From Isoetes taiwanensis (taxonomy: Eukaryota; Streptophyta; Lycopodiopsida; Isoetales; Isoetaceae), in NCBI GenBank assembly GCA_021234155.1, contig JAJEKV010000052.1, positions 3,032,254 through 3,096,253 on the forward strand: a stretch of DNA of 64,000 nucleotides, read 5' to 3'. Made by a program: the position numbers and the translations under genes. Below the pieces are notes generated by a model. The model worked only from the letters and a program-made list of their open reading frames with translations, was not told the DNA's origin and did no database searches. This document shows positions 13,492 to 62,805 of this stretch, one piece after another (position 1 is the stretch's first letter; each line of letters starts with the position of its first letter).

Positions 13492-15521
13492 GTGGCAGAG
13501 GTCATGTGGGCCAGTTCTGGTCCATGGATCAGGAATGGTTCCAGAGACAGGTCTAGTGTTAAAGATGAAAAACAATTCATCTTTATGGATGAGAAGGTTT
13601 TCAAGAAGTTAATGGAAGTTGCCGGACTGTGGGTGAACCGTAAGCTCAGTGACGACCATGGTGAGTTTCCGGACAAGCCATCCAAAGACTTCTTTAACAA
13701 GACCTGGCTCCGGTTGCTACGAGGTATGTCGAATGCAGAGGTGTCACAGCTGCTCGATGAGATTATAGAAGGCAAGACGTATTTAAAGGTGCAGTCAGGG
13801 TATAGCGGGAGATTTGATTGCAAACAACGGGCAACTGACATCAGAACCCTAACTTTTATGAGGCGCGAAATTTTATCTTATGCCACAAATTTGCTGCAGA
13901 AGGATTTCGATAGCTGGGAGGAATTGCTTCAGGCTTTTCCTGATTTGACTGAACAGAGAATACTTGATATATCAGATACCGATACAGAGTACGTGAAGGC
14001 TAACTATAACAAGGATCATACACTAGGTAACCTACCTGTAGCCTTTCTGGAGCCAATCAGAAATATTCTAAAGCCAGAAGAGGCTAGAAAAAGAAAAGAG
14101 AAGAAAAATATTGTCATAAGGATGGCATCCCTACTTCCTCCCCAGTGTCAGAGAATGCCACATTGATATTTATTGACATCCGAGGGATGAACAAGGTATG
14201 GGATTGCAAGAAATACACAGACCTATTTACAAGGATAGCTACCATGACTACTGCCAAAGTTTATCACTTGGTTATTATCATGCGCTCTATGAATTTGCCC
14301 AATTGCTTGTACAGTCAGAAGCAAATTCAGGGAGGTGGCCACCTGTCTTTAGGTTCTTATGAAGAAATGGGTTGGGAGAACAAACGAAGGGTGAAAGAAT
14401 ATCAGTACTATATTAGTCATATGTGCATTAACAGGAGTGATGTTCGTGTAGCACCTGTGCAACCTGAGTTGGAGCTTCGTCTATCTCCACACAACAAGGC
14501 CCCTAAAGCAACACCATTGCCTCCAATGCCGCTAACAGGTAATGAGGATGCCAATGAGAAGATAAAAAAGACGAAGTTTCAAACTCTTTTTACAGGCAAA
14601 CCAAGATACAAATGGGCGGCAATGGAAGGAGAACTTGTATTGAAATGCCAGCTGAAAACCTTGTATGCCTATTATATTGTTGATCAGCTGGTGCCCACCG
14701 ACGGTTGCGTTCTGAATTTCTTTTCGGCTGGACAGCTTCTCGTGTCGCTCTTATGCAAGGCAAAAAGAGCGTGGCCTTTGAAAGTTCAGGTAAAGTGTGC
14801 CGTTTCCTGAGGGCCTTCTTGGAAACGCTTGAGAAAATGGCCAGTCAAACTACGGGGGGATCTGAAGAAGAGGAGAAAGCAGAGAATGCTGAGCCTAATC
14901 CTTTGCTGCCCAACATCAGTATTACCCAAAACACAGATATATCAGGGTTGGATACCATTTTGGATAACCTCGATGCTAAATCCTACAAGGAGAGAATGCA
15001 AGAAACAAAGCGCTTGCTGGACGGAAAAAGGTATTGAAGCTCTCGAGCCCACTTTTCAAAAATTAAGTGCACTGAATGAGAAGATTGATGGGTACATGCC
15101 ATTCTTGACAGGCGAACATAAGTTTGAATACATGGGCGTAGAGCACATGGAAATAGACCAACAGCACATGGAAACAGACCAACAGCACATGGAAACAGAC
15201 CAAGATGAGGCTGTTGGGACACAAGAGCATCAGGTACACTGCAAGAAGCAGAAGCTCTTTCATCCACACGAGATTGCTACTCAATCGGAGAAGGAACTTA
15301 TAGGCGTGAATGGTGCAGAGGAGAGTGAAAATGCGGTGCCTGATTCACATGTGGAGCGCATCGCAAAGGCCATGGGTGTTGAGATTCCAGAGGTCACAGG
15401 TTATTCAGAGATGGACACAACACAAACTATAGAATTGGGTAGAGCGCATGTCATCCGCATGGCCAATGAAATGGGTGTGATACCTGATAGTGTATCTGAA
15501 ACACAATCACGAGAATTATAA
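13492..15521 (+). pseudogene. Methyltransferase-like half of system 1 (degenerate)
   Basis: Three overlapping frames read as one protein. Frame 1 (13492-14166) is a helical region, with SWEELLQAFPDLTEQRI aligning to TWEKVKELYPTWSSDEKI of the gene at 21015-25146, then a K/E-rich stretch. Frame 2 (14145-14810) carries NATLIFIDIRG where the other gene has NYSLCIADIPYG (motif IV). Near 14725 the reading moves to a third frame: VLNFFSAG is followed by ASRVALMQGKKSVAFESSG, a motif I-like glycine loop. From about 15035 the tail reads to ...SETQSREL at 15521. So motif IV precedes motif I (permuted order), but the catalytic Pro-Tyr is replaced by Arg-Gly and the SAM loop is eroded. An acceptor-like cttcctccccag ends at 14143. 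The frame changes near 14140, 14725 and 15035 suggest a pseudogene. Homology to the second gene is by eye. Confidence 0.55.
15144..15203 (+). repeat. 21-bp in-frame repeat (HMETDQQ), three copies
   Basis: Three tandem 21-bp units encode HMEIDQQ, HMETDQQ and HMETDQD in the acidic C-terminal part of the system 1 protein. The unit length is a multiple of three, so copy changes keep the frame. Confidence 0.85.
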
Positions 15522-16462
15522 TTGCATTCCTCAAGAATGATTACTGTACATTACTTCCTTCAATGGAAATTTTTGTTTCAGGAATATGTATTACCATATC
15601 TTTTTGTCCCTACTACTACTTCGTGCATGTTTAATGTTAAAAATAATCGCGGCCGCGATCCTCTGTGGCAAATACATAGCTTTAAATACTGAAATGTTTG
15701 TGCTATGCTTGCTCCACTGTACCTATTTTGTACGTAATGCTCTCATATGGTTTTAATAAAAAGCTCATTATTTTGTCTCTTTTCTGCTGCGAAAGATCGC
15801 GTTCGCGATTCTTGCGATAAGATAGAGCATTCCCTCCTACTACATTCTACTCACGATGGATCTTTGCATGAGCTGTAAAAACTATATTTCCGAACAACAC
15901 CGAATCATTGGTAGAATTTGTACAAAAAAATGCCAACTTTTACTCAGTTGCTAGTAGTTTCTGCACTATATGGCTAACCACGAACCTATTTCATGCTAAA
16001 CGAGAATTCCAAATTTCTCTAATTAATTAATTCATGCTTAATGGGGCTTTTTGGTAGCATAGATTAGTGTGCAGGTGCATGGAGCAACATAAGTTTTGTT
16101 AATATTTTCATCCATGGCTACGGATCCGGCTGTGTCATTTCCACAACTCCAGATTTTCATATAATTCTCTAAATAAAGATAGAATTCTACTCGTTTTTGT
16201 CAATAAATAAAAAAATTAGGAACAAGAATGAGGTGCTTTTTGGTGAAGGTAACAGAAGTAATGGATGCAGCTGGGCCTTTCAAAAAGCTACCTGGCACTA
16301 CAATTTGAAATTAGCTAAAGCCCAATTCTACAAGTCCTTCTAAACTCTATGATCCAGATCTTGACAAATTCTCTGTTTAAAGTCATCCCATCGAGTCTCT
16401 GGCCAGCTGGCGCTGCCTGCAAGAATGGGATCTGTAAGTTCCTTTCTACATTATACAAGGAT
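15522..16462. other. 3' flank of system 1, no clear gene
   Basis: AT-rich. It contains the palindromes at 15646 and 15796. A 40-codon open stretch near 16215-16340 (NKNEVLFGEGNRSNGC) is not recognised. It ends with GGAT (16459-16462), the left target duplication of the transposon that follows. Confidence 0.45.
15646..15659. repeat. Palindrome ATCGCGGCCGCGAT, copy 2
   Basis: Identical to the 14-mer at 455-468. A variant with TT at the centre (ATCGCGTTCGCGAT) follows at 15796-15809, exactly 150 bp start to start. Both lie downstream of the system 1 stop codon. Confidence 0.85.
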
Positions 16463-16493
16463 AACAAGGTGACGGTGCAAACGCACTAATGAC
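16463..16493 (+). repeat. Left 31-bp terminal inverted repeat
   Basis: Pairs without mismatch with 28364-28394. It overlaps a hairpin: GTGCAAACGCA (16475-16485) and TGCGTTTGCAC (16495-16505) form an 11-bp stem around a 9-nt loop. The right end lacks this second stem arm. Confidence 0.95.
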
Positions 16494-16821
16494 TTGCGTT
16501 TGCACTAATAAAAAGCATCTTTCAAAGATTCCCTAAGATACCCTTAAATTCAGCCACTTTTGGGGGGTCAATTAAAAAAATGACCCTAAATTTACGAATT
16601 CGGTAGCCATTTTAGGGGTCAAAATTACCAAAAAATTGGCGTCTTATTAATTTGACATCCCCATTTTAGGTATGAAAATAATAATTTAATTTAGTTGTTT
16701 TAGGTACACATTCAGAAAGTCGCAAAATGAAACAACGAGCAAATTCTTGACAAAATTTAAAGACAGAAACCATAAAATGGAGCCGTATACATTTTTTATT
16801 GCTCAAGGAGCAGCACACATG

Positions 16822-16898
16822 CTATGCGCGCATAGGCAAGGCACAAAAATAGTTTGCTACAAAAGAAACAAAAATTGCAAAATGCTATGCGCGCATAG
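16822..16898. repeat. Two CTATGCGCGCATAG palindromes near the left end
   Basis: Exact copies start at 16822 and 16885 (63 bp apart), between the left terminus and the 3' end of the DUF7869-type gene. They are the leftmost sites of the set. Confidence 0.95.
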
Positions 16899-16966
16899 CA
16901 GGGATCCTAAGTTTGAAAGACAAACATTGTACAAACTAGTCATGTACAGCTGTACAAATATTCAAA

Positions 16967-19900
16967 TTACACGAGTAGCTTACGCCCTTTAAGAAGAGCA
17001 GGTATTGGAATGTCGTCGTACTCATCAATGCCTTCAGACTGGTGATCACTCTCCTCATTGACACTCTCCTCAATATCGCTTGAAGTGGTGGAAGAGCTAA
17101 CCGCTGGAACGCTGTCCTCGTCTTGTTCAGCTTCGTCCTCGCTATCCTCGCAGAAAGACTTCAACAAGTTTATTGTTGTTCTGCGAAGTCTGTTATCAAC
17201 CTTTAAAGTAAAATCGTAAGCCAAGACTTGAGTTTCAGCCAGGTCCAGATTGTCTAAGTGATTCTTATTCACCGTTTTCCGTCCTTTCTTAAAAGGAATT
17301 ATCACAGGATCATACCGACCAACGAATGGATCTGTATCCTTAGTGGCATACCAGTGAACTTTTATCACTGAGGGTAGGTTGCCTTTATAAACAATGTCTT
17401 TAACCCTTGCAATCCAAAAAGGACGTTCTTCGTCATCGTCAGTTGAAGGTACAACCACTAGCATTCCTTTCTGCAGATCTGCAAGTTTCTCTGGAGTTTG
17501 ACCTTCCTTTTTCTTGAGTGCACGTCGAGATCCCAGGTACATTGCACGATCAACGGGCTCCTTGTTGATAACAAGATTGATAATGATTCTTACGCAATTC
17601 CTTGGGCATCCTCAGCAGGAGGAGAGGTTTGGCTACCAGGCCAACAAAAAGGAATCTCCAAAGTGATGTTGTTTAAGGACATGGTCACGTCTTTCATGGT
17701 TTCAAAGAAATTTTCCCACCAGCCCTTTTCTTCCTCATTAAAGTACTTAAAACACGAGCTTATGCTTTTCTCCATGCTGGATAGTGAGACAAGAGGATTC
17801 TTGTCTTTGTTCTTCTCAGTGTTGTTTATGGCACTCTTCAGTGGCTGCTGAATGGCTCTTCTCATTTCTTTAACTTCAGGAACACGTCTCAAGAATTGTA
17901 ACCCTGCCTCTGGAAGCCAGGATGCAGAAGTTACAAAGTACTTTCCTTGAAGAATGGCATTACCTTCTTTGAGAAAGAACTTCACATGATGCTGAAAGGT
18001 CAAATTATTCAACTTGTGAATAGCAGGACCTGTGTCAGACTGTCGTTGGAAAATAAATTCATGAAAATCACAAGTCTCGCTAAGCACTTCGACAACTGGA
18101 GTTGGATTGTAGGCTTTCTCGATCACACTGCACAAAGAGTACAGACAAAATGCCTTTTTCCTGCGCAACCTTACAGAAAATCGACTGAACATTTGGTCTA
18201 TTTGATCATGCGTGTGGCCAACAAGTAAGAAGCCAACCTTGACCTTTCGGAAGATACCTAATTGGACCAGCATTGCACAGTAGGCAAATAGAACTTGGTT
18301 TTTATTTTCCCTGCTTGTATTGTCTAGCTGTATGTAGAGCACTGAAGGCAACTTCTCCGTTGCCAGAAGAATCTTGTTCAGTATTGTGACCGTGAGATTA
18401 GGATCACTGTGTATATTTGGGTACCTCAAAAATACTCTGCACTTAACCACGCCCTGAAAAACTAAAGCACCAACTAGATGCAACTTCAGGAAGTCAGCTT
18501 CATCTAAATCCTTAGGAACATTTATAAAATGAGGAAGGGACGTCTTCTTTTGATCCATGCCATCTATTACCACAGACATGTATTCAAGAGGCCTCTCCAA
18601 AGCTTTTTTTCTGTGTTTTGCAAGCTTCTTTCTTTCCAGGGCTTGAGCCTCTCTGTGTTTCTGTAATTGTTGAGTTATTTGATCTGCAACCAAAGACATT
18701 TGTCAATATCACAGTCACTTGCTTTGCTATGCGCGCATAGACACAATGACACGTATTTAGTTTTTCGCTATGTGCGCATAGACAAGCGACCAGGGTACAT
18801 AAAGCATGCTATGCGCGCATAGAGAAGCGACAAGAAAACAGAAGCATGCTATGCGCGCATAGACAAGCGACCAGAAAATAGGAAGCATGCTATGCGCGCA
18901 TAGACAAGCGACCAGAAAATAGGAAGCATGCTATGCGCGCATAGACAAGCGACCCGAAAATAGGAAGCATGCTATGCGCGCATAGACAAGCGACCAGAAA
19001 ATAGGAAGCATGCTATGCGCGCATAGACAAGTGACCAGAAAATAGGAAGCACGCTATGCGCGCATAGACCAAAGTCCTTGCTTTATAAACTGTGCTATGC
19101 GCGCATAGACAAAAGACAAATCTAGTTAACCTGTGTTACGAGCGCATAGATATGGGAACCGTAATTTGAATCAAAGAACGTACTTTTCTCGGGAAGATTC
19201 TTTGCCATGGACCTTTTCTCCAATACAGAACATGTAGAACATACTGAGAACCGGTGCCTTTTTGGGATCCTAACAAGATTGAATTCTTGCTTCCACAATC
19301 TTAAGAAGTAAGAGTAGGATATGAACGACTGACTTGAAGACTGGAAGAGATCTCTGTACATGATGTAGACTTCTTTCTTGGTAATGCTGTCCGTAAGATG
19401 ATGAACAGGACTGTTGGGTAGTCGCTCACAGTTTGAGTCAAAGAAGCCCACCAACCATGCTTTTGCTTCCAAGCAGTGCACACCAACTACTTTCTTTGGG
19501 TGACAGTAGTCGTCAATGCATGGATTTCTGTCTAACCGTCTTTGTACCCTTGACATGCGACAACTTCCAATGGCATGTATTCTTTTGAAAGCCAGCTGGC
19601 AAACAGTTACATTCAACTCATAGTATGAAAAACTGTCGCCTCGCTCAGGCATCACGTGATATGCTAGGTAGGATTCCTGGTCACCTTTAGACATTGACAA
19701 GAAGGATTGTCTTGTTTGCCTTAAGGACGAAAAAGGGAAGTTCATTATACACTTCTTTTGACAACAAGCCAGACGCCTTAGCTGCCTCATGTAAGTTAGT
19801 CCCATTAACCGATTTCGCAAAACTGTCCTAAATGCCCTTACTGTAGGGTCCCTCTTAAATCTCTTTTGCACCGGGCCAGTATTTCTCGAGTCGAAAGCTC

Positions 19901-20357
19901 GGGGGCTGTTCTGGCTGGAGCCTATATAGGTCTTTCTGGAGTACAAACAGGCTCGTCTTCAATAGTTGTGTCGTTAACCTTCTCGCTCTCAACCGAGGAA
20001 CATGGAAACAATGTTCTAGATTTCCTCCTTAACATTTGTAGGTCATCCTCGGCCGACCCTTTGGGTTAACGAGGGCCTTTTTCACGTTGAAGAGGTCTCT
20101 ACGTAATCAATTATGTTTTGCAAGGAACGTTGCAATTCCTGTAGAGGTGAAGGAGTTTCAAAAATTGAGTGGGTCGTGGTGAGTAGGTGAGGCCGAGGGA
20201 AACGCGTCTTGTCGAGTGAGGAGGGAGATGGTGTTCTAAACACGTAAGAACGCCGTAAAACGTGTGTTGGTGAAGGAGTTTGAAAGGAGGTGGCACAATC
20301 AATAGACCGGCGCATTGCTGTATTGGCGACAAAGAAACAAAGCTTCCGGATGGACAT
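16967..20357 (-). CDS. DUF7869-type transposon protein
   Basis: A multi-exon minus-strand gene. The probable first exon (20357 to about 20082) has repeated F-x-TPSP motifs. The next block (19946 to a GTACGT donor at 19182) carries FSYYELNVTVCQLAFKRIHA, RVQRRLD and a Cys pair (FSVCSTCSVL), matching the N-terminal half of DUF7869 proteins. After an intron full of palindromes, the exon from 18683 to about 17590 has VVIDGMDQ, YIQLDNTSRENKN and VGHTHDQIDQMFSRF, which are the family signature and plausible RNase H-like acidic positions. The last block (17542-16967) has an SH3/Tudor-like FWIARVKDI...IKVHWYA region, an acidic tail and a TAA stop. Frame changes near 19925 and 17580 leave it unclear whether the gene is intact. 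It is the likely transposase by elimination and domain type, acting in the nucleus on the element's ends. Confidence 0.7.
18727..19149. repeat. Palindrome array A, 11 sites at 41-bp steps
   Basis: Starts at 18727, 18768 (variant), 18809, 18849, 18890, 18931, 18972, 19013, 19054, 19095 and 19136 (degenerate). All steps are 41 bp except one of 40. The spacer over most of the array resembles ACAAGCGACCAGAAAATAGG. The array fills an intron of the DUF7869-type gene (18684-19182). Confidence 0.95.
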
Positions 20358-21014
20358 CCACGAAATCTTAGATCTTCACCGCTTTGTCGGGTGTCTTTGA
20401 ACCCCTCGAGGCAATAATGTAAGATTCGAAGGCGGAGATAGGAAACTTTTTCTTGAGTGGCTGCCGTCCATGCTGCAAATGGACAAAAATACCATTCGTA
20501 AAACAAACATGCACCACACCTACTATGCATGTACTAAGTAAGGAAGTACACTAACTAATTAAAATAGAAATAATAGTATCTTGCCTATGCGCGCATAGCC
20601 CGGGTGTAAGATGAACTCTCGTTCCATGCGCGCATAGACAAGATATCAAAAATTACCGCGTGAGAGATAAGCCTCGTTACCTACTTGAGCCGTGGAAGAC
20701 GATTAATAAATTCTATAGCTCAAGCGAAGGAAGACAAGATAAGATACGAAACTGTAAAGGAAGAGCGGGGAAGACGAAGAGACTTTGTGTGGGTTTGACA
20801 CTCCATAAAGGACTGCATGAAATGAAACGCTATACTCTTCATGCATAATCTCATAGAGAATATCCAAGTACTAACATAGACAATAAATAGGAAAGAAGGG
20901 CGCACATTTCTGCATACAGACCGACGCTCCTGGGCCCTCGACCTCCGCCTTCACACTCACTCCACTTTTTTTTACCTATCGAATTCTATAAGAAGCTGCA
21001 TAGACACGCGGCAA
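20358..21014. promoter_or_regulatory. Shared 5' region between the two divergent genes
   Basis: About 660 bp separate the likely start of the DUF7869-type gene (20357, minus) from the first ATG of the methyltransferase gene (21015, plus). It holds an exact palindrome at 20585 and the variant CCATGCGCGCATAG at 20624. A bidirectional promoter is inferred from position only; no specific TATA box or start site is claimed. Confidence 0.45.
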
Positions 21015-21207
21015 ATGGCAGGTGGAAGGTACGTCAAGATCTTAGCTGCTACTTAATTAGCTCACTTTTAAATGTTTTTTGTGCATTATTTGCTTCATTT
21101 GGCTGCCTCCAAAATGATTAAAAATGTCAATTTCTTAAGTATTTCTGGCCTTCTTCCTCTGTTCTAGGTATTTTTTGTTTGGTTTGAGTCTTTTTTTTAA
21201 GCTTTGC

Positions 21208-21468
21208 CTATGGGCGCATAGACACAAAGCTTTTTTCTTAGGCTTTGCCTATGCGCGCATAGACACAAAGCTTTTTTCTTAGGCTTTGCCTATGCGCGCA
21301 TAGACACAAAGCTTTTTTCTTAGGTTTTTGCCTATCTTGCCAAGATAGACACAAAGCTTTTTCTTAGGGCTTTGCCTATAACGATAGACACAAAGTTTTT
21401 TTTCACGCTTTGCCTATGCGCGATAGACACAAAGTTTTTTTCTTAAGCTTTTGCCTATGCCAAGATAG
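21208..21468. repeat. Palindrome array B, seven sites in intron 1
   Basis: Starts at 21208 (variant CTATGGGCGCATAG), 21249 and 21290 (exact), then decayed sites at 21332, 21375, 21414 and 21455. Steps are 41, 41, 42, 43, 39 and 41 bp. The spacer resembles ACACAAAGCTTTTTTCTTAG, unrelated to array A. The decayed copies at 21332 and 21414 keep inverted symmetry around changed centres. A further exact site lies at 21529, before the exon 2 acceptor. Confidence 0.9.
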
Positions 21469-22192
21469 ACACAAAGCTTTTTTCTTTTGTAGTATGCCTG
21501 TCACTATTGAATTGGTTGAATTGGTTGGCTATGCGCGCATAGGAAAATGATGTCTTAATACTTTACTGTTCTTAATATTTCAGTAAGAAGAAAAACCTTG
21601 CACGGGGTAGCCAGGATGATGCAGGTGTATCCTCCCAAAAGGTCGCCAAGAAGAGGAGAACGCCGAAGGATCCAAGTCAGGATGTTTTGGCTCCAAGTCA
21701 GCAGCATTTTCAGGAGGCCGATGATGGCTCCTATTTTTGTAAGGATCAGCAGTGGTTGCTTGTCAGGGGTACCGGTAAACCAGCAACTGTGCATTTTTTA
21801 TATTTATACATTTGTTCTGCGACTGGCAAGCAAACACAGGACCTAGAAAGCTTCAGAAGATGTGGCAGGCTTATAGATGTTGAGCTGTTTGGTATGTACC
21901 ACATCAAGTGCACGACCACCACCAAGGGCAGTCAACATATATATTCTGTGGATAGTTCATTTTTTAAGCTGAGTTTGTCTTCTCCGGAAGATATGCAAGG
22001 CTACATTCAGGCAAGAATGAAGAGTAAAATTGTAAGTGTTATTTTCCTGCACGAGAAGACTTTACCAACATGTTTGGTCTATGACATCATAGGTTTTGTT
22101 TGCAGGATCTTCTTTCTATACTAAAAGATCTTCTTTTGAACAAGGATCATCTGTTAAGTTCTAGCGCACCTCCTACTAAGCTGCTGAAGGAT

Positions 22193-22238
22193 GCCATGCC
22201 ATCTCCTGCCAAGCTGCCATGCCATCTCCTGCCAAGCT
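22193..22238 (+). repeat. Exact 23-bp tandem duplication, frame-breaking
   Basis: The 23-mer at 22193-22215 is repeated exactly at 22216-22238. Because 23 is not a multiple of three, the reading from exon start 22106 ends in TAA just after the repeat. With one copy, the frame runs directly into ISRISETVELATVDED and the ParB-like domain. Confidence 0.9.
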
Positions 22239-23120
22239 AATCATCTCCAGAATCTCAGAAACTGTTGAGTTGGCAACAGTGGATGAAGATGAACCTTCGG
22301 AATCCGAATCTGAGGAGGAAGAGTTTGAGGTTGAAGTGGTGGAGAGGCCCAGAAAAAAGAAAGCCAAAAGAAATTATTACAAGGCAGGCCTGGTGACTGA
22401 CATTGCTCCACCAACTAGCAAGGCATCAAGACAAGGCACTAAGGTAACTTTGCCTCCAGCACCGGGTACAAGGATTGCCAGTAAGAAAAAAGACATGGCT
22501 TCTAGGAAGCTCGAAGAAATTGAGCTGAGATGTCGTGTGCCTGGGATCGTGCACCTGCAGGTTGATTGTGTTAAGTTGTGCCCAAAGGATGAGTCTGGCG
22601 AGAGACCTTTGCATGTAAGAAAAATTTACTCTGGTCATTTGTCTGCTCTTAAGGAACGTATAAGGGACAGACCAAATGCAGCTACAGCACCACACATTTG
22701 CATTGTTGACCCTTCCCAGTGCACGGAAAGGGATTCGTTTGTAAAGGAAGAGGATGAAAGCTACAGATATTTTGTTTTGGGTGGCACTCACAGCTTTAAG
22801 GCGAGGAGGCAGCTTTATAAAGAAACTAAAGAGCACTGCTTCTCTCAAATATTTGCATTTGTTTACGTGGGTGTCACTGACTCTGAAGCCAAGTTGCTTG
22901 CTATGAGCCACAATGTGGACAATGAATATCGGATGAGCATGAGCTTCATTGATAAAATTAAGTTTATGCACAAGGAATACGAGCTTTTTAGGTCGGAGCA
23001 TAAGGGTGACAAAGATATAAAGGATGATCAAAACCTATATCTGGCTCTTAAAGAGCAGTGTGGTACAGAGTGCTGCTTAACGTACAACTCCAGTGATGCC
23101 AGAGCATCTCTTGTGAAGTA

Positions 23121-23140
23121 CTTCCAACTACTTCCAACTA
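23121..23140 (+). repeat. Exact 10-bp tandem duplication, frame-breaking
   Basis: CTTCCAACTA is doubled. The duplicated form runs into TAG at 23146-23148. A single copy would stay open to the CGT|GTAAG donor at 23158. Confidence 0.9.
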
Positions 23141-23189
23141 GCTTTTAGGCATGGACGTGTAAGATAACTTTCTTCTCCAAGTTCTTTGA

Positions 23190-23203
23190 CCATGCGCGCA
23201 TAG
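23190..23203. repeat. Variant palindrome in intron 3
   Basis: CCATGCGCGCATAG, one base from the consensus, lies in the short intron between 23159 and about 23248. Confidence 0.9.
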
Positions 23204-23730
23204 CCATTGAGTTTTCTTACCTTTATTTCTTTCTTGTCCCTTTTTAGGTCTGGGAACTTCAAGAAATTTTTTTTTGATATGTTTGCTGAGGGTACACTGA
23301 AATCTAAAGGGAAGGTGAAGGATCCAAAAAGAAAAAAAAAAATGAACCTGCAAAACAGAAGGACATGGGTATCATGGTTTGGAGGGAAATGCAAGGTCTA
23401 AGAAATACAGAAAAAGTTTGTGAGGTGCTGCAGAAGGTGGTGAATGGCCACTTTAGCTTGGAAGAAATGCAGGGTGAATTCAAACAGTAAGTTCTTGCTA
23501 GTTCTCGCTGGTAGTTTACGTTCCCGAGTTTTTTAACACTCCTTACTTTTGCAGCCAAAAGGATTGTGCACTCTGTCAGCAGCACTCATGGTTCACCTTA
23601 ACTGTGACACCTGGGAAAAAGTTAAAGAATTATACCCTACATGGTCGTCGGATGAAAAGATAAACCAATACGCTTCAAATTTTACAAACTGGGTAAATTT
23701 TGTTGTTCCCCTACTTATCTTGTTGTGTGC

Positions 23731-24013
23731 CTATGCACGCATAGCACTACAAGAAGTCCGTTACTGTGGTGCTATGCGCGCATAGGCTGACACTTCGAAC
23801 TTTTGTTTTTTTCTTCTTGCTGTAAGTTGTTTTCTTGTTGTGTGGCTATGCGCGCATAGCATTACGAGAAGTCCATTACTGTGGTGCTATGCGCGCATAG
23901 GCTAACACTTGGAACCTTTGTTTTTTCTTCTTACCAAGGCTGTTTTCTTGTTGTATGTCTATGTGCGCATAGCACCAAAAGAAGTCCGTTACTATGTTGC
24001 TATGCGCGCATAG
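23731..24013. repeat. Palindrome array C, three 41-bp pairs in intron 5
   Basis: Pairs start at 23731/23772, 23846/23887 and 23959/24000, each exactly 41 bp apart. The intra-pair spacer resembles AGAAGTCCGTTACTGTGGTG. The pair unit recurs at 115 and 113 bp. The first member of pairs 1 and 3 is a one-base variant (CTATGCACGCATAG, CTATGTGCGCATAG). Confidence 0.95.
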
Positions 24014-24429
24014 GAAGACATTTTGAACTTTCGTCTTCTTGTTTGTACTAAAGCTGTGTTCTGTGGTTTTAGAAAAAGAAGGACCCGATGCCGCCAGGGT
24101 TTCTTAACATGATTAGACTTGCTAAGGAAGAGCGCGCCAAGCTTAAGAAGAAGGAAGAAGCTGAGCAAAGTTTTGTACCAACAGAATTTGAAAGGTTTGA
24201 CATGTTTGGCCAGAATTGTTTATACCAGATATATCATGGAAATTGTGTCAAACTTGACCATACGTTGAAACCTGGCAATTATTCGTTATGTATTGCTGAT
24301 ATTCCTTATGGATTCAAGCTACCTGATAGTCGTGGAGACGATTCTCCATTTACTTATGCTGAATTTGATTCTTTCTTGAGACGTTTCGTCAAAATAAATA
24401 CTGCACCTTTGGTAAGTTATTTCTTTTTG

Positions 24430-24443
24430 CTATGCGCGCATAG
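24430..24443. repeat. Palindrome in intron 6
   Basis: A single exact CTATGCGCGCATAG fills much of the 62-bp intron 24412-24473. Confidence 0.95.
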
Positions 24444-25208
24444 CACACAATAACTCATTGGTTGCGGTTGCAGGTTGAAGATGAATGTAAGAGGAAATGG
24501 CGGTGGTGCAAGGCTTGTAAATGTTTGGGAACAGATGCACATTGGTTACCACAGCATTGGTGGGCAGAGAAGCATTTTGCACTATAATACTGCTGGCATG
24601 GACTTGCGTAATGCGTTTCAATTCCCAGCTGTCATTCATAAATTAACAGACCCAGTACACCAGGATCGTGTAGTCAATCCTTATCAGAAGCCTCAATAGC
24701 TCATTAATACCCTTTTAGAGATGTTTTCACAGCCAGGTGACTGGGTCGTCGTTGCCTTCTCAGGGTCAGGGACCACCTTGGCTTGTGCTTTAAAAAAGGG
24801 TCGCAACTGCCTTGCAATTGATTTTGATAAGGATTCTGTGGTATATATAAAATCCAGAATAAGTTCTCTGCACAGCCTGCCAGATGAAAAGCAGGAGGTT
24901 GGCCTTAAGGATAAGGATGGTAATCCCGCAGCTTCAAGCTCAGAGCCTTTGCCGCCACTCACCGGGAACACCAACGATCCGGCCGAGTTCGTTGAGCTTG
25001 TTCCTGTGGAAGAGATTCAAAAGGTTGTGGAAGAGAATGATGCCTCAGACACTGAGGAAGTTAATCCTGATAGCTCTACTACGGTTCTCCCTCCTCCAGA
25101 TTCTGATGATGAACTTCCTCACAAGGAAACTCTTCTTGATATATAATGTGTGCTAAAAAAATGAAATTTGTTTATGTGCCTATATTATTGTATTACATTA
25201 TTGAAATA

Positions 25209-28140
25209 CTAGTAACGGTGCCCAGCGTTGCTGGGATAAGTTCAAAGCCTGTAGATGTTGTACCCGCAATGAGAAAAGGTGCAGTAATAATCCAACTTTT
25301 GTAACTTTCTATTATAAGAAAAAAAAATTCAATTAACGTCGTCTAAAAGAAATCTAGCTCAAACATGGACCATTCAGCAAGTGTAGACATCACCTTCCTT
25401 TAAATTTACATGATCTAGCATTTTTGGATGGACAGACCTGCAAAGCAACCAACACTAATGATGTGCATTGTAAAAACACATGTATCATATTTTGCCTGCA
25501 TTATTGGTATAGCAATTGATCTCATGTATACGGCTTGATGAATTCTCAAAAGTTTCTGTCATCTATAAACGAAATACCTTTACATCCCTTTTGATTGATC
25601 ATGGCAGAAATTGATATAACACAATTGGTTACAACTTTCTTTAAATTGATATTGGTAAAGTAAAACTATTATAACTTCATTTATAGTTCAAACGTAGATT
25701 ATTCAGCAAAAGTAGATGTCAATTTCTTTTGAAATAACCTAACTGGTTTATTCCTAGCACTTTTGGATGGACAGATCTCGCAAAGCCGCCAACACTAATG
25801 GAGCGTCGATTGTAATATACAAATATGGAATGTTCTTTGCAAATGAACACGCCCATGTCACCTCTAGCGTGAATCCTAGTTAATATTCACGAATTTGGAA
25901 GCGGGGCAAACTTGCTCTAAGCGTGAATTCTAGTTAATATTTAGGAGGGCGGGAAGAGGGGCAAACTTGCAAAAAAAGAACATGGTAGACTATGTTGGAT
26001 ATCGGAGGAAAACATATTTTTAAACAGAGACTTAGGTGTAACAATTGTCCCGCATTTCCAAGACAAACCGGATCTTTGCTTGAGAAAACCCACAAACATA
26101 AATGTTGCTCCATCATTCAGTTCACAATTGGTTCTTTGCTTGTGCACCTCTAAGGTTTGCAAACCTGTTTTTGCACAGGTTGCATGGCTTCATGTAGGTG
26201 TAAGTCTAGCTGCCGTCATGATTCTCGTAAATTCATTCTCACGCAAAAATTAGCAAGATATAATGGAAAAGCTTATTAGACTCCCAAGCGATGCATGCTT
26301 GAGATGAAATTAGATGTGCAATGACAAAGCAGATAGTTCATTCTAACATAACATATGTTGTTAATACGTTTTCAAATTGATTGCAATATTAAGTCGATTG
26401 AGTGAGTGATGCGGATAGGCTCGCGACAAATAAAGCGAAGCGTTTTGTAGTAGTAAGTGTTATGTAGCCTTTACTTGATGGCATAGGGACAACATTGCAA
26501 GCGTGCCAAGCTATTCAAAGATGGCATTTTTCGAAAAAGGTAGAGACCACATTGTTGAATAAATTATCTCAAGTGGTGTGTCCCTTTGTAGCAAGCTCCA
26601 CTTATAATCTCAGAAGATGCATAATAACTCTTCAAACTATGGAAACAGAATTAAGTTGCATAAGTTTACGAATCCATGAGAAGGGCAAGACTGTATGTAG
26701 AGGATCATAGTGGAACATCATAGTTAGCTAGTTGCAAAGATATAAACAAGCTCCTCCTTGAGTGAATGAAGAGAGAGATAGAGCTTGAGGTGGTTTGGCA
26801 AGAAAAAAATGGAATGGGGATTACAATTTGCTAAAATATAGCCAATAATATCTTCATAAAATTAACTACCCGACAGAAAAAACGAAAATTTTCAGAGAAA
26901 ATTTAACTACCCGACAGAACAGAGATACTTGAATCCCTGAGAATGTAAAATAGAGGCCATGGCATAAGATAGCATTCAAACTTTGGCCCTTCAAATAAGC
27001 GTATAAAAAGACCTCGAGTTCTTCATACAATTCTCGTATCACTTACTCATGGTTAAGAATGATATTGTTGGCGGAGAGAAGATCGGTTTACCAACGTGAA
27101 ATACCGGATTTTGTTGTTGTTTACGCACATAATCTCGCAAAAGAAAAACACAGCTCGGTTAGCCATCTTGCCAAGCATGGGCAAATCCGAATATAGAAAT
27201 TATCTCCGCATCTTCATGTTTCCCAAAAGCTCCGAGAAAATGTAAGATGGAAAATGCACATAATCTACGCAAAAGAAAAAAACAGCTTCGGTTGGCCATT
27301 TTTTGGCAGATAGCTTAAATCATTTAATTACGAGAGCATCCTAAGCTCGGATGGATCACAGAGATGAACGAAATACTACGGCGGTGAAGCCCTTGTACAA
27401 AACAAAATCCGGGAAAAAACAATTTCGGTTGGCCATTTTTGCGAGATAGCTTAAATCACTTAATTATCGAGCATAGATGGGCCTAAATACTACAGCAGAT
27501 GAAGCCCTTATACAAAACAAAATCCGTGAAGTAAAGGAGCTTACAATGCAAAGAATACCAGGATGGGTTATAATGTAAACGTATCCAAGCATGTCCGGTC
27601 ATGCCAGGGTGTTACCGTTACATTCTCAAGCATCCAAAACTGACCCTTTACAGCCTCTTGAAGAATTTCTTTTGGTGACCATAATTCAGAATAGTCCATA
27701 GCTTCCCGAAGAAAAACTCTACCTGGCTTTTATCGATGTGCAAGCCTGCATATTCTGCGCCATAGCCCTTTGAAAAATCAAGCCTCCAGCTATTGTATCT
27801 GATGGGTTCCTTGAGCTACTAAATCCAGTTGATCAGACCTTCCTGCACCTTTGAATGATGCGGTTGTATAAACAGATGCATGGCAACCTCGGATGTTATT
27901 GAGTACAACCGCTGTGAATGAAGAGTCGCTTCCCACCTGTTTCCTTCTTACGCCAGACTTGTCCCAGGTTCCCATAAAAGAATGGCCTCCCCTAGACGGG
28001 ACAGCCATGGCCCGATATCTCAGCCTAACCCTAAACGTGCCATTATCTTGGCCTTTGGATGCGATGCGATGGAGAACTTAGGCCGTCGATTAGGGCTAGG
28101 GTTTCATTCACGACATACAATATAACTTTATAATATAGGA
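25209..28140 (-). mobile_element. Helitron D, non-autonomous, nested in the transposon
   Basis: On the minus strand it starts TCCTATATTATAAAG at 28140 (preceded by A) and ends with GCCCAGC-AAC-GCTGGGC, ACCGTTA and CTAG at 25212-25209, followed by T. It sits about 60 bp beyond the methyltransferase stop codon, between that gene and the right end of the larger transposon. The 2.9 kb contain no Rep/helicase frame. Internal ~140-bp units around TTCGGTTGGCCATTTTT and GATAGCTTAAATCA repeat near 27285-27400 and 27420-27530, and a diverged pair around TTTTGGATGGACAGA occurs at about 25420 and 25765. Confidence 0.85.
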
Positions 28141-28152
28141 TAACTTTGTTGT

Positions 28153-28166
28153 CTATGCGCGCATAG
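28153..28166. repeat. Rightmost CTATGCGCGCATAG palindrome
   Basis: An exact copy between Helitron D and the right terminal repeat, so the transposon has palindromes near both ends. Confidence 0.95.
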
Positions 28167-28363
28167 ACTTCCTTCCTTCCCTTTGTATTTTGTTTCGTAA
28201 GAAAGTGCATTTTCTTAGTGTGTCTTAACACAAAATCTGTCGCCCGCTTTTAAAATGGCCATATTTGGAATGCAACTTTTTTTTTATAGTTGTTTTTTTT
28301 TTTAATGGTCAAAACTGCCGAATTTACGTTTTTTGGAAAAAGGAATCTGCAATTGCACCACAG

Positions 28364-28394
28364 GTCATTAGTGCGTTTGCACCGTCACCTTGTT
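28364..28394 (-). repeat. Right 31-bp terminal inverted repeat
   Basis: Exact reverse complement of 16463-16493, followed by GGAT (28395-28398). The host sequence without the element would read ...TATACAAGGATGTGCATG.... Confidence 0.95.
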
Positions 28395-28451
28395 GGATGT
28401 GCATGAACAAGTTGATGAAGGATAAATTTTCTGCTAGGTATTTAGCATGAA

Positions 28452-35494: not shown

Positions 35495-37998
35495 TCAAAG
35501 ACCCAAACTTTTGAGGTGCTCATCTGCCTCAAACCTGTACAATTCATCCAAATCTTTAAGCTTTCCTCTAGCCTGAGATTCTTCGTCTGAATCAGATGTG
35601 TCCTTTTCATTCAATTTTCTTTTTTTTCTACAATGCTCATCATTTTTACATGCAGTCAAGGGTAAATCCACAAATAGATCTAGACCTTGACTGCATCCAT
35701 GACTAGCATCTTCACCTTGTTCACTATTTTCATTTATTTCATGTTCATGCGCAGTTTCAGCCAGTAATTCAGTTGTGATAATAATTGGGCCATCTTCCAC
35801 ATCTTGTGCTTCTGATTCCAGCATTCTTTTTGTTTTTCTCCTCAATCTTTTAGGCCTTAATGAGGCAAATTCATTGTTCTCTAAGGCAGCCCTTTCCAAA
35901 GCCTCCCTTTCTGCTGCAGCCTTTCTTTCCTCTCTCAGTTTCTTATTCTCTTCCCTTCTCTTTTTCTCTTGCTCCTTTGCTTCTTTCCTCTGAGCCTGCA
36001 GCTTCTTCTTCTCTTCTAATTGTTCTTGTCTAATCCTAGCTGCCTCTTCACACTGCCTTTGATACTCTAATCTAGCATGCACCATCTCATCTGATGTCAC
36101 AAGGAGTCTGCCCTTCAAGCTTTCAGGTAATCTAAGCCTCTTAGGTTTACATTTTGGATTACTTGTGGATGGAACATCTGCAGCAGCAGGAGCAGATAGT
36201 GATGGATTGTTTGAAGGGATGGGAAGATGGGAAATCAGGTCTACAAGTGCAACAAGTGGATTGCCATCTTCAAGAGTACCACCTAAGGTATAACATAGAG
36301 AAATATTAGAGCAAGACAGTAAGATTGAATGGATTTACAAAAATTAAAGTGTCTTGTACCTTGTATCTCAGATTGACCACCATCAAGTTCATCTGCTCCT
36401 GCTGCTGCAGTATCATCAGCATCATAATACTCATCTACATCAGGTTCAGCCACAGGTGCTTCAGCCACAGGTGCTGCCATGGCTTCTGTCCTACCAGTTG
36501 CTACCTCTCTTTCCCTTTCCATACTATCTGCTAAAGGGTCAGGTTGTACACGAGAAGGATCCCAAGGCCATATTCCAGTTTTGGAAAATCCAGCAGTGAT
36601 GTTACTAGGACTAAGAGCTTGCGATAATGAATTTGACACAATAGTAGCAAGATCTTCTTTAGTAGGCTCAACTCCATATTTGCTATGCATGAAATGACCT
36701 CTTAGTTTTCTGAAATTAATTTTGAATGGTCTAAAACAAGAGACGTCTAATGGTTGCAGCCTATGTGACGTATGTGGTGGCAATTGAACAATCTGCAGCC
36801 CTATTTCTCTCGCTTTTAGAATGGTAGCCATGTTAACATGGCTACCATGACCATCACAAATTAGCAAATGAGGTCTGTCTTTACTTACCCCCCCAGGAAC
36901 GTTATTTCTGAAATGGTCTAACCATGCTTCAAATAACTCATCTGTGATCCAAGCTTTTTTTTGGAAAGCCATGGCAGCACCAGCTTCACAACCTGCTACC
37001 AGATTCTGATCTCTCATCCTTTTGCCTTTAAAAACATAAAGACTTGGAATCCTAGTTCCTGTTAATGCAAACAAGTAATGAATTAATCTATTCAATCAAA
37101 TTTATAAAACATAAACAATTAAACTAGCAAATTTAATACTTCATATCTATTCAATCAAATTTATAAAACATAAGCAATTAAACCAGCAAATTTAATACTT
37201 CATAGCTATAAACTCACCTGATGCATTTACACAAACTAGAACGGTCATCCATTCCCGATTCTTTGGCACATGCTCTGTCACATTTTTCTGCCCCTTCCTA
37301 GCTATAACTCTCATGCCAGTTCTGCAACCTGCCTGAACTCCAGTTTCGTCGCAATTCCATACTCTGCTTGGATCAAGATTTAGGTCATCATATACTTTTC
37401 TAAGTGTGGAATAGAAATTGTCAAGGTTTTTGGTAGTCATTGACTTCACCCTTTGAAGTTCAATGCATTGTACAGTCCTCACAGCAATTTCTGGATGCCT
37501 CCCCCTAAAAGATTTCCACCACTTCTTACCAGGGAGCCCATCCTTGAAACAAGTCTGCCTATGGATAGTCATGGCAGCTACCTTTTGTTTCATAATGTCA
37601 AGGGTAATTGCACGACCCTCCTCAGCCAATTGGAGGGCCCAATCAAGGAGAAATTTCTCCTCATCCACTGTTAGTGCTTTGGGAATAGATCCAAATTTAG
37701 ATTTGGATTTACCATACAAGTGATTCCTCAAAGTGGTTTGAGGAATCCCATAGTGCAAACCAGCTTTTCTTATGGAGAAGATGCCGTCTTCAATGGATTC
37801 CATGGCAGATTCTAAGGCTTCCATAGTCCATGAACCCCTAGTAGGACCTCTAACATGCTTCTTAGCAGTTGCAGATTTTTTGGCAGAAATCAGAATTCTA
37901 GAAGACCTACTTTTTCTAGGAGGAGGTGGATCTGCAACTTCTTGTTCTAAGTTAGAATCAGGGGGAAAAGCAATGGTTCTATTACTTCTCAGATTCAT
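35495..37998 (-). CDS. Pogo/Tigger-like DDE transposase, intact
   Basis: Exons 37998-37218, 37058-36360 and 36282-35495 join with GT-AG introns (donors GTGAGT and GTACAA; acceptors AACAG and CTTAG) into 2268 nt, giving 755 residues and a TGA stop. Residues ~50-190 form the DNA-binding region: a psq/CENP-B type helix-turn-helix (FSIRKAGLHYGIPQTTLRNH) and a second one with FLLDWALQLAEEGRAI and GKKWWKSFRGRHPEI. The DDE_1 catalytic core follows with NCDETGVQ (~217), LLICDGHGSHVN (~328) and LQPLDVSCF (~365) as the acidic triad. The C-terminal third is a K/E/R-rich coiled coil (~550-620) and an acidic tail. It cuts and pastes its own element in the nucleus. The open reading over three exons and intact triad suggest recent insertion. 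ATG at 37998 is chosen because it begins the basic N-terminus; an upstream in-frame ATG is possible. Confidence 0.85.
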
Positions 37999-39059
37999 TT
38001 CTGAAAGAAATGAGATGGGAAAAACAATGAGATGAAGATGTAGCGCTTCTCCAAAAGAATGACAAAATTTATGCCTACATATAAACAATTCATTGGCATC
38101 AATATTTAAAGAACTCAGTGAAAGAAATGTGAATTAAAGACTAAGTTTAAAAATATGAGACTATGGAATTAAAACAATGGGATAAATAATCTACCAGCAG
38201 ATCAATGAGCAGCAGATCAATGAGCAGAGATGCCAGTGATAGTGATCAACCCTGATGGCAAAAAGGGAGCATCATCAGAACGATTACTTCAAGCCCAAAA
38301 ATGAAGAAAAATCCTGAAAAAATGACCTCCAGAATAAACTCTTAAACTCACCTACAGAAGCCCACATCGCTCATCTCAGTTGGGCCTATTTATACCCTGC
38401 AGCCATACGAAAAACAGCATGAGAATGAAGCCACTAAAGGATGCTAATTAAAATCAAAGGTTCAGGAGATTCCATGTCAATGATCCATCCTATTTCCGGC
38501 TGGGATCATGCCAAATGGGTGCCATCTCATTGATCCTAAAGAACTGCAGTTGAAAAACCCGCCAAATCGATGAAGAAGCTCCAAGTTTTTGGAGGGCAGG
38601 AACGAAAACATGCTGCACAATGGTTTTCTTGTGAAAAATCCATGCAAAATAGTGCTCTGAACCATTGGATTCCATGGTTTTGCAAGACTCCAGCAGCTAA
38701 ATTTGATGCGCCATTAAAGGCGGGCGCAGCGCCATCTTGGGCAGTCGCCTAACCGTCATGAAGATTAGGTTTGCCATCTGCAGGGTTAGGGTTCGCCATC
38801 TGGAGCAGCCGCCTAACTGTCATGAAGATTAGGGTTCGCCATCTGCAGGGTTAGGGTTCGTCATCGTGAGGATGAGATTTCGCCATTAAGGGCTTTAGGC
38901 GGACCATTAAGGTGAATTTTGCGTGCAAAAAATAAGCTCCTGGTGACACCATGGAAGGGGGCGTCACCATTGACGGGGACCCCACCTTAAAAGGAAAATA
39001 GATGCCATCTAACCTTTGTAAAGAGGAAATAGGCTTGAGTGCTACAGCCGCAACCGCCA

Positions 39060-58034: not shown

Positions 58035-60555
58035 GAGCACCTTGGCATGTGTGCCACCTTGGCATGTTGGAGCCTAGGTAGCATGTTTGAGACTAGATGG
58101 CATCTTGGAGCCCACGTGGCATGTTTGAGCCACTTTGGCATGTTTGACCCTAGGTGGCATGTTGAAGCTAGCTGGCATGTTTGAGCCACCTTGGCATGTT
58201 TAAGCCTAGGTGGCATGTTTGAGCCACCTTAGCATGTTGGAGCCTAGGTGGCATGTTTGAGCCACCTTGGCATGTTTGAGCCACCTTGACAGGTTTGAGT
58301 ATAGGTGGCATGTTCGAGCCACCGTGGCATGTTTGAGCCACCTTGACATGTTTGAGCCTAGGTGGCATGTTGGAGCCTAGATGGCATGTTTGAGACACCT
58401 TGGCATGTTGGAGCCTAGGTAGCATTTTAGAGCCCACGTGGCATGTTTGACTCACCTTGGTTGTTGGCCCTAGATGGCATGTTGGAGCCTGCGTGCCATG
58501 TTTGAGCCACCTAAGCATGTTGGCGCCTATGTGGCATATTTGAGCCCACGTGGCATGTTTGAGCCACCTTGGCATGTTGGAGCCTAGGTGGCATGTTTGA
58601 GCCAACCTTGGCATGTTGGAGCCAAGGTGGCATATTAGAGCCCACGTGGCATGTTTGAGCCTAGGTGGCATGTTGGAGCCACCTTAGCATGTTAGAGCCA
58701 CGGTGGTATGCTGGAGCCTAGGTGGCATGTTTGAGCCACCTTGGCATGTTGGAGCCTAGGTGGCATGTTGGAGCCAAGGTGGCATATTGGAGTCTACGTG
58801 GCATGTTTCAGCCACCTTGGCATGTTTGAGCCTAGGTGGCATGTTGGAGCCACCTTGGCATGTTGGAGCCATCTTGGATGTTTGAGGTTAAATGGAATGG
58901 TGGAGCCTAGGTGGCATGTTTGAGCACCTTGGCATGTTTGAGCCACCTTGGCATATTGGAGCCTACATGGCATGTTGGAGCCACCTTGGCATGTTTGGGC
59001 CACCTTGGCATGTTTGAGCCACCTTGGCATGTTTGAGCCTAGGTGCCACCTTGGCATGTTTGACACACCTTGGCACTGGAGCCTAGGTGGCATGTTGGAG
59101 CCCACGTGGCATGTTTGAGCCACCTTGGCATGTTGGAGCCTAGGTGCCATGTTGGGGCCTGTGTGGCATGTTTGAGCCTAGGTGGCATGTTTGAGCACCT
59201 TGGCATGTGAGCCACCTTGGCATGTTGGAGCCTAGGTGGCATGTTTGAGACTAGATGGCATGTTGGAGCCCACGTGGCATGTTTGAGCCACCTTGGCATG
59301 TTTGACCCTAGGTGGCATGTTGAAGCCTAGGTGGCATGTTTGAGCCACCTTGGCATGTTTGAGCCACCTTGGCATGTTTAAGCCTAGGTGGCATGTTTGA
59401 GCCACCTTAGCATGTCGGAGCCTAGGTGGCATGTTTGAGCCAACCTTGGCATGTGGAGCCAAGGTGGCATATTGGAGCCCACGTGGCATATTTGAGCCAC
59501 CTTGGCATGTTTGAGCCTAGGTGGCATGTTGGAGCCCACGTGGCATATTTGAGCTTAGCTGGCATGTTGGAGCCTAGGTGGCATGTTTGAGCCACCTTGG
59601 TTTGTTGGAGCCTAGGTGGCATGTTGGAGCCGACATGGCATGTTTGAGCCTCCTTGGCATCTTTGAGCCACCTTGGCATGTTGGAGCCTAGGTGGCATGT
59701 TGGAGCCTGCTTGGCATGTTTGAGCCACCTTGGCATGTTTGATCCATATTGGCATGTTTGAGCCTAGGTGGCATGTTAGAGCCTAGGTGGCAAATTTGAG
59801 CCACCTTGGCATGTTCGAGCTTAGGCGGCATGTTGTGAGCCACCTTGGCTTGTTGGAGCCTAGGTGAGATGTTGGAGCCCGTGTGGCATGTTTGAGCTAC
59901 ATTGGCATGTTTGAGCCTAGGTGTCATGTTGGAGCCTAGGTGACATGTTTGAGCCACTTTGGCATGTTGAAGCCTAGGTGGCATGTTGGAGCCCACGTGT
60001 CATGTTGGAGCCCACGTGGCATGTTCGAGCCACCTTGACATGTTTGAGCCACGTTGACATGTTTGAGCCTATGTGGCATGTTGGAGCCTATGTGGCATGT
60101 TTGGGCCACCTTGGCATGTTGGAGCCTAGGTGGCATGTTAGAGCCACCTTGGCATGTTTGAGCCTAGGTGGCATGTTGGAGCCTAGATGGCATGTTTGAG
60201 ACACCTTGGCATGTTGGAGCCTAGGTGGCATGTCTGAGTCCACAGCATGTTTGAGCCACCTTAGCATGTTGGAGCCTAGATGGCATGTTGGAGCCTGCAT
60301 GGCATGTTTGAGCCACCTTAGCATGTTTGAGCCTAGTTGGCATGTTGGAGCCTAGGTGGCATGTTTGAGCACCTTGGCATGTTTGAGCCACCTTGGCATG
60401 TTGGAGCCTACGTGGCATGTTTGAGACTAGGTGGCATGTTGGAGCCCACGTGGCATGTTTGAGCCACCTTGGCATGTTTGAGCCTAGGTGGCATGTTTGA
60501 GCCAACCTTGGCATGTTTGAGCCAACCTTGGCATAATGGAGCCCACGTGGCATAT
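58035..60555 (+). repeat. 19-bp satellite, block 1 (~2.5 kb)
   Basis: Tandem 19-mers of three main kinds: GGCATGTTTGAGCCACCTT, GGCATGTTGGAGCCTAGGT and GGCATGTTGGAGCCCACGT. The 19-bp step is not a multiple of three, so the translation repeats every 57 bp (19 residues) and long frames such as PPRLQHAKVAQTCHLGSNM appear on both strands without being genes. Occasional 18- or 20-bp units break the phase. Confidence 0.95.
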
Positions 60556-61761: not shown

Positions 61762-62805
61762 GAGCCACATTGGCATGTTTGAGCCTAGGTGGCATGTTGG
61801 AGCCACCTTGGGATATTAGAGCCTTGGTGGTATGTTGGAGCCTAGGTGGCATGTTTAAGCCACCTTGGCATGTTCGAGCTTAGGTGGCATGTTTGAGCAC
61901 CTTGGCATGTTTGAGCCACCTTGGCATGTTGGAGCCTACGTGGCATGTTGGAGCACACGTGGCATGTTTGAGCCTAGGTGGCATATTGGAGCCTATGTGG
62001 CATGTTTGAGCCACCTTGGCATGTTGGAGCCCCGTGGCATGTTTGAGCCACCTTGGCATGTTTGAGCCACCTTGGCATGTTGGAGCCTAGGTGGCATGTT
62101 CGAGCCAACCTTGGCATGTTGGAGCTAAGGTGGCATGTTGGATCCCACGTGGCATGTTTGAGCCACCTTGGCATGTTGGAGTCTAGGTGGCATGTTGGAG
62201 CCCACGTGGCATATTTGAGCTTAGGTGGGATGTTGGAGCCTAGGTGGCATGTTTGAGCCACCTTGGTGTGTTGGAGCATAGGTGGCATGTTGGAGCCCAC
62301 GTGGCATGTTTGAGCCACCTTGGCATGTTGGTGCCTAGGTGGCATGTTGGAGCCCCCGTGGCATATTTGAGCCACCTTGGCATGTTGGAGCCTAGGTGGC
62401 ATGTTGGAGCCCACGTGGCATGTTTGATCCATATTGGCATGTTTGAGCCTAGGTGGCATGTTGGAGCCTAGGTGGCACATTTGAGTCACCTTGTCATGTT
62501 GGAGCCTAGGTGGCATGTTGTGAGCCACCTTGGCTTGTTGGAGCCTAGGTGGCATGTTGGAGCCCGTGTGGCATGTTTGAGCCACCTCGGCATGTTGGAG
62601 CCTAGGTGGCATGTTGGAACCCACGTGGCATGTTGGAGCCCACGTGGCATGTTGGAGTCTTGGTGGCATGTTGGATCCCACGTGGCATGTTTGATCCACC
62701 TTGGCATGTTGGAGCCTAGGTAGCATGCTGGAGTCCACGTGGCATGTTTGAGCCACCTTGGCATGTTGGAGCCCACGTGGCATGTTAGAGTGGGTGTGGC
62801 ATGTT
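61762..62805 (+). repeat. 19-bp satellite, block 2 (~1.0 kb)
   Basis: The same monomers and orientation as block 1. The CCACGTGG-containing type is more frequent here. A run of consecutive copies of that type occurs at about 62600-62700. Confidence 0.95.

Follow-up and report, generated by a model that had tools for sequence, protein, structure and literature searches.

How might a plant transposon that carries a DNA methyltransferase gene of its own recognise and label the DNA that belongs to it? This question is raised by an 11,932-bp element in a 64,000-nt stretch of the 1.66-Gb Isoetes taiwanensis genome (hereafter the window). As the original prediction had stated, the element holds two divergent genes, a DUF7869 gene on the minus strand and a gene with an N6_N4_Mtase domain and a ParB-like part on the plus strand. 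In addition, its noncoding DNA is dotted with a 14-bp palindrome, which that prediction had overlooked, as it had a 2.93-kb insertion and the breaks in the methyltransferase frame. Three other families with the same gene pair occur in this genome, and each carries a different palindrome. We see an even chance that the element is one family in a large group of two-gene DNA transposons, each pairing a DUF7869 transposase with a divergent ParB-like amino-methyltransferase, which would tag themselves in a VANC-like manner.

The claim of a complete DNA transposon was borne out. Both terminal inverted repeats (TIRs) match at 31/31 bases and are flanked by a GGAT duplication (Table 1). The left 238 bp gave 556 first-look candidates genome-wide, and the 40 that were scored are 94–100% identical over the matched stretch. 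Thus the termini are not a product of chance, because the element belongs to a mobile family. From this window family (W) ten other copies were fetched, with 14 kb taken for the tenth. Nine of them, 8.0–10.6 kb in length, have both TIRs and, at each locus, a perfect 4-bp duplication particular to that site; for the tenth, no right TIR was detected in the 14 kb taken. All tested exon pieces align in all ten, save the N-terminal methyltransferase exon, which is missing from one. Copies lacking the gene pair, which would have spoken against the original prediction, were not encountered: 10/10 still contain part of each gene. The 2.93-kb insertion of the window copy is absent from the nine copies with both ends (four junctions printed). 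It lacks a clear duplication at its site and is possibly Helitron-like.

Within the element, the W palindrome CTATGCGCGCATAG occurs 21 times exactly and 28 times at up to three mismatches, and it is found nowhere else in the window, of which the element makes up 19%. A chance origin was rejected, since shuffles of the window give 0.00 exact sites and 1.22 at up to three mismatches. The 28 sites form nine clusters, and none touches an exon as drawn; the chance that nine independent clusters would all avoid the exons is about 0.005. Genome-wide, 1,551 exact copies were counted, against 0 for the reversed control. Each of 11 W copies has 11–23 exact sites and none of the other three families' motifs, and in the nine two-ended copies no palindrome with up to one mismatch lies outside the element. 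At ten palindrome places drawn from the first listing, mostly for their few palindromes, element-like DNA (about 66–92% identical) was present within the 3 kb fetched in every case, and the palindrome lay inside the aligned part in eight. A 20-mer containing the W palindrome had 0 matches in GTDB genomes.

Successive palindromes in the window are spaced by 40 or 41 bp in 15 of 27 cases. Across 118 spacings from 13 loci, those up to 75 bp cluster near multiples of 10.25–10.5 bp; 20–22, 30–32 and 40–44 bp are frequent, but so are 27–29 bp and others, and tandem units are not independent. Sites of type Y (L051, L057, L061 to L064) often recur at 20–22, 30–32 and 40–44 bp, about two, three and four helical turns. 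As a further observation, the inner 12 bases of the W palindrome, TATGCGCGCATA, alternate between purine and pyrimidine and are thus Z-DNA-prone, which by eye the other three motifs are not.

The three other DUF7869/methyltransferase families, X, Y and Z, have the palindromes GTATGAATTCATAC, GTATAAATTTATAC and GTATTCCGGAATAC. All four motifs follow one plan, [GC]TAT-(6-bp palindromic core)-ATA[CG], with the cores GCGCGC, GAATTC, AAATTT and TCCGGA; the X and Y motifs differ by one symmetric base pair. The X element (9,466 bp, duplication CTAC) contains its motif five times and the Y element (8,636 bp, duplication GCAA) 18 times, the ends of both (one copy each) having been chosen with a 4-bp duplication as condition. 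At up to two mismatches, 9/9 X and 28/28 Y sites lie inside the termini. Family Z is represented by two copies, in which the element ends were not found, with four sites in each. A cross-table of exact sites by motif and family is diagonal, save one Y site in X. Family X, family Y and the second Z copy have parts of a divergent ParB-methyltransferase gene, with 28–55% amino-acid identity per matched piece to that of the window, and the first Z copy shows only an open reading frame (ORF) like the N-terminal methyltransferase-gene exon. In W, X, Y and Z alike this gene lies on the strand opposite to the transposase (each Z copy shows part of it), and DIPYGFK is conserved in 4/4 families.

Does the motif follow the family beyond these copies? 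In a forward test, eight of 20 loci from the DUF7869 family list (2.2 kb each, upstream of the domain) were selected on DUF7869 alone, by differing match ranges to the family profile. All eight carry an array of one known motif with 3–17 exact sites, and in all eight the palindrome agrees with the family of the remaining DNA (five Y, two Z, one W). Outside the motifs these loci are 66–83% identical to the reference, so the motif endures as the DNA around it changes. Circular assignment was rejected as an explanation: masking motif-like sites together with 60 bp on either side left 8/8 assignments unchanged, and one Y locus also had a 33-bp match to X after masking. Matches to the methyltransferase gene fall within five of the eight stretches.

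Two loci contain mixtures of sites. The X copy (L047-L048) has five X palindromes and one exact Y palindrome together with hybrids, GTATGAATTTATAC among them, which looks like an address in drift, and the Y-family locus L061 combines two half-X sites (GTATAAATTCATAC) with seven exact Y sites.

The minus-strand gene matches DUF7869 (PF25273) with an E value of 2.9e-51. The proposal that it encodes the transposase fits what was found, as DUF7869 probably is a DDD-type transposase and has the features of one with an RNase-H-like core. Sola (Sola1) transposons, reportedly described by Bao et al. in 2009, are said to combine a 4-bp target-site duplication with a DDD transposase of RNase-H-like core; the 4-bp duplication and probable DDD core seen here match these features. 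Ratios of nonsynonymous to synonymous polymorphism (pN/pS), computed for codons away from gaps among 10–11 W copies, are 0.39–0.51 for the three transposase exons, and all bootstrap intervals, here and for the pieces of the methyltransferase gene, are below 1. Genome-wide there are 9,902 first-look DUF7869 candidates, and 150 of the 150 that were scored exceed the cut-off; the group looks very large in I. taiwanensis. A DUF7869 search of IMG/VR gave no match.

The plus-strand gene, judged by its sequence, is that of a permuted beta-class amino-methyltransferase, as predicted. Its motifs appear in the order DIPYGFK, QKP, FSGSGTT, and motif IV before motif I is the order of the beta class. PF01555 (N6_N4_Mtase) reaches 27.9 bits against a cut-off of 26.7, and the best PDB matches are CcrM (E 4.2e-8) and M.RsrI (E 1.6e-6), with which the protein shares this motif order; it differs from both in its DIPY motif IV, its fusion to other domains, its intron-split gene and its eukaryotic host. 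The gene is under purifying selection: pN/pS is 0.42 for the N-terminal domain, 0.30 for the ParB-like part and 0.13, 0.36 and 0.44 for the methyltransferase pieces. In public collections, a query with low-complexity stretches gave no match at E up to 0.001 among 7,993 candidates; a second query gave three bacterial-looking matches and no eukaryotic relative.

How could gene pair and palindromes belong together? One might picture that each family tags its own noncoding DNA, i.e., the stretch between the genes, the introns and the subterminal DNA, with its specific 14-bp palindrome. A protein of the transposon, most likely the ParB-methyltransferase, would bind these palindromes cooperatively as a dimer along one face of the helix; a dimer is suggested because the sites are symmetric, and binding on one face would be consistent because the spacings are near whole helical turns. 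The bound protein may then methylate adenine (or cytosine) in or beside the palindromes, and the mark would label the transposon as 'self'. The simplest purpose would be to keep promoters and introns accessible in the face of silencing by the host, the service that VANC performs for VANDAL elements. From this pattern we infer the reader, the methylation and the anti-silencing purpose alike. The family-specific palindromes lend strong circumstantial support to the earlier suggestion of self-marking. A more specific version seems possible to us, albeit tentative: a modification-type code of self-recognition, in which each family's methyltransferase would target its own palindrome, planted in its own noncoding DNA. 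The outer TAT/ATA, common to all four families, would then be the shared contact or the methylated part, and the 6-bp core would be the family address. New families might arise by drift via half-changed sites, as suggested by the X, Y and X/Y hybrid sites of the X copy.

Several observations weigh against this self-tagging model. The methyltransferase frame of the window copy is broken by a 23-bp and a 10-bp duplication and an in-frame TAG; a slip in a stretch of A seems to add to this, and none of the 10 other W copies has the 23-bp tandem pair. A pattern search located motif I in W and X but in none of the Y and Z copies. The ParB-like domain, which the original prediction had named, is weakly supported. 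In its favour are a GG(T/N)HS box and TIGR03764, whose E value is 1.7e-3 over the whole ORF and at best reaches 5.5e-4, seen in two of three families and far below the cut-off of that profile. PF20188 (DUF6551) reaches E 0.013 in one of three members, equalled by PF05352 (Phage_connector) at 0.013, and other profile families match at E 0.013–0.028 in a chance-looking manner. The profile search gave no PF02195 match, and a three-family profile against PDB found three weak unrelated matches and no ParB structure. When the ParB-like ORF was modelled with AlphaFold from its single sequence, the predicted local distance difference test (pLDDT) score was 35, and the model was discarded. Furthermore, ParB folds are often nucleoside triphosphate (NTP)-binding modules. 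At eight orthologous sites (75 site-copies) the palindrome differs at 56/1,050 bases and the flanks at 389/5,608; being barely more conserved than its flanks, the palindrome therefore decays nearly freely in single copies, and thus constraint must act on active lineages. CpG depletion is weaker in the element than in its flanks (0.61 vs 0.47, palindrome sites masked), which may reflect age or coding content. Finally, the transposase could equally be the reader, because each of the four families has both genes.

This last point leads to the main rival explanation, that the palindromes are dimer sites of the DUF7869 transposase, used for transpososome assembly or for repression of its own promoter, with the methyltransferase doing something else; family-specific sites would stop the families from mobilising each other. 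As is generally known, transposases often bind repeated internal or subterminal motifs. From family to family the DUF7869 proteins differ just as the motifs do, with 38–63% amino-acid identity per matched piece, and arrays occupy the stretch between the two genes, the place where autoregulation would be expected. However, the dense arrays occupy introns and the middle of the element instead of its ends, and of the 28 sites in the window only 3 stand no more than 450 bp from a terminus. Moreover, the termini of W, X and Y share AACAA.GT...ACGCACT or close variants, a motif different from the palindromes. We consider this explanation unlikely.

If a transcription factor of host or element, or an enhancer function, accounted for the palindromes independently of DNA modification, their position between genes and in introns and their near-helical phasing would fit. 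Yet a host factor would favour one site, whereas four palindromes on one plan coexist in one genome, and we regard regulation of this kind as improbable. Neutral satellites, with palindromes spread passively by slippage inside the element, appear to us very improbable. Outside the 14 bp, lone sites have little in common, and the spacers of the three arrays, compared with one taken per array, were apparently unrelated (ungapped p 0.13–0.72). The same palindrome persists where the other DNA is only 66–83% identical, and the distinct palindromes keep one symmetric plan. Points in favour of this reading are that many sites do stand in tandem arrays of 41-bp units, their number varies between copies, part of array 1 resembles an inverted part or flank of array 3 (35 nt, 86%), and orthologous sites show little extra conservation.

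How new is such an element? Contrary to the original prediction, which knew of no described plant system, the pairing of transposase and ParB-methyltransferase genes is already known from algal transposons and is not new, because PMC12477816 reports that the Ectocarpus Sola-1 transposon Sola1-1_Ec32 carries a gene with a ParB-like domain and an N4C/N6A methyltransferase, and cites similar genes in green and red algae (Iyer 2011; Petroll 2025). In the passages cited here, that study proposes that proteins of this kind may act on their own transposon by binding and modifying it. Sola1-1_Ec32 and the Isoetes element are both DNA transposons in which a transposase is paired with a ParB-like amino-methyltransferase encoded on the other strand. 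In contrast to the Ectocarpus case, at least four families are present here, each with its own palindrome, and palindromes go unmentioned in those passages of PMC12477816; a receptor kinase gene of land-plant type also stands in the window of the Isoetes element.

Closer to the palindromes are the VANC proteins of Arabidopsis VANDAL elements, which according to the passages cited bind family-specific motifs in noncoding DNA (PMC5735166; PMC10398659). As in our element, whose noncoding DNA has family-specific motif arrays of the VANC type, these short motifs occur at high density in noncoding DNA, in introns and in upstream regions, frequently as tandem repeats that are gained and lost, and are rare in other transposable elements. 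However, the VANC21 motif has nine bases in one orientation and is not a palindrome (PMC5735166), and the passages cited name no element methyltransferase for VANDAL. The likeness we propose would be one of mode of action, as the transposase here is of the DUF7869 type and VANC systems are Mutator-type. Fusions of a ParB fold to an N6_N4 methyltransferase, the same domain pair, are common in phages and overrepresented in prophage regions (PMC12704722); these are prokaryotic or viral, and the available text of that source contains none of the words transpos-, plant and alga. Literature searches returned no account of family-specific palindromes in such elements, and these palindromes look new.

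Table 1. Features of the Isoetes taiwanensis element, in window coordinates.
Feature	Position	Strand	Basis or remark
GGAT target-site duplication, left	16459..16462	.	sequence
Terminal inverted repeat (31 bp), left	16463..16493	+	31/31 identical to right TIR
CTATGCGCGCATAG, 2 sites, left end region	16822..16898	.	
DUF7869 C-terminal exon, putative link to catalytic exon	16967..17542	-	no Pfam match for this exon
DUF7869 catalytic exon, probable DDD transposase domain	17593..18678	-	D42, D119, D161 of that piece
Palindrome array, DUF7869-gene intron, 11 sites	18727..19149	.	one site with 3 mismatches; 40–41 bp spacing
DUF7869 N-terminal exon, Cys-rich	19191..19946	-	approximate start; open frame and likeness to full-length relatives; ends by eye from GT/AG
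Palindrome pair between divergent genes	20585..20637	.	
Palindrome array, first methyltransferase-gene intron, 3 sites	21208..21303	.	further degenerate sites to 21468
Lone palindrome, first methyltransferase-gene intron	21529..21542	.	
ParB-methyltransferase gene, N-terminal domain exon	21585..22032	+	resembles ORFs of families X and Z by eye
ParB-like exon	22104..23160	+	frame broken by two duplications, a tandem one of 23 bp (22192-22237) and one of 10 bp close to the exon end
Lone palindrome, intron	23190..23203	.	1 mismatch
Palindrome array, intron, 6 sites	23731..24013	.	grouped as three pairs, spacing 41 bp
Methyltransferase exon with motif IV (DIPYGFK)	24073..24410	+	
Lone palindrome, intron between motif IV and motif I exons	24430..24443	.	
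Methyltransferase exon with QKP and motif I (FSGSGTT)	24474..25146	+	PF01555, CcrM and RsrI matches; in-frame TAG 24697-24699 in window copy
2.93-kb insertion in window copy	25208..28140 (about)	.	between A and T of uninterrupted site
Lone palindrome near right end	28153..28166	.	
Terminal inverted repeat (31 bp), right	28364..28394	-	31/31 identical to left TIR
GGAT target-site duplication, right	28395..28398	.	sequence

Besides the element, the window contains further features. A second, pogo-like transposase-like gene lies in pieces at 36283-38088 on the minus strand, with HTH_psq, HTH_Tnp_Tc5 and DDE_1 domains. The receptor kinase ORF has B_lectin, S_locus_glycop, PAN and kinase domains, a make-up typical of land plants. 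Left of the element, three adjoining ORFs on the plus strand (13492-15521) gave no Pfam match at E up to 0.01, and a 19-bp unit (TGGCATGTTG...-like) is repeated in two long arrays, at 58060-60553 and 61762-62790.

Taken together, if the methyltransferase reads the palindromes, a eukaryotic transposon would be marking its own DNA at addresses set by sequence, much as the modification half of a restriction-modification system does, and several families would have changed their address. This would be a second solution to the problem that VANC proteins solve, and the disputed N6-methyladenine (6mA) and N4-methylcytosine (4mC) of land plants would become testable at defined sites. The families would also supply natural protein-target pairs for site-specific epigenome tools. 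Even with the transposase as reader, four family-specific palindromes in one genome represent an unusual natural experiment in protein-DNA co-evolution.

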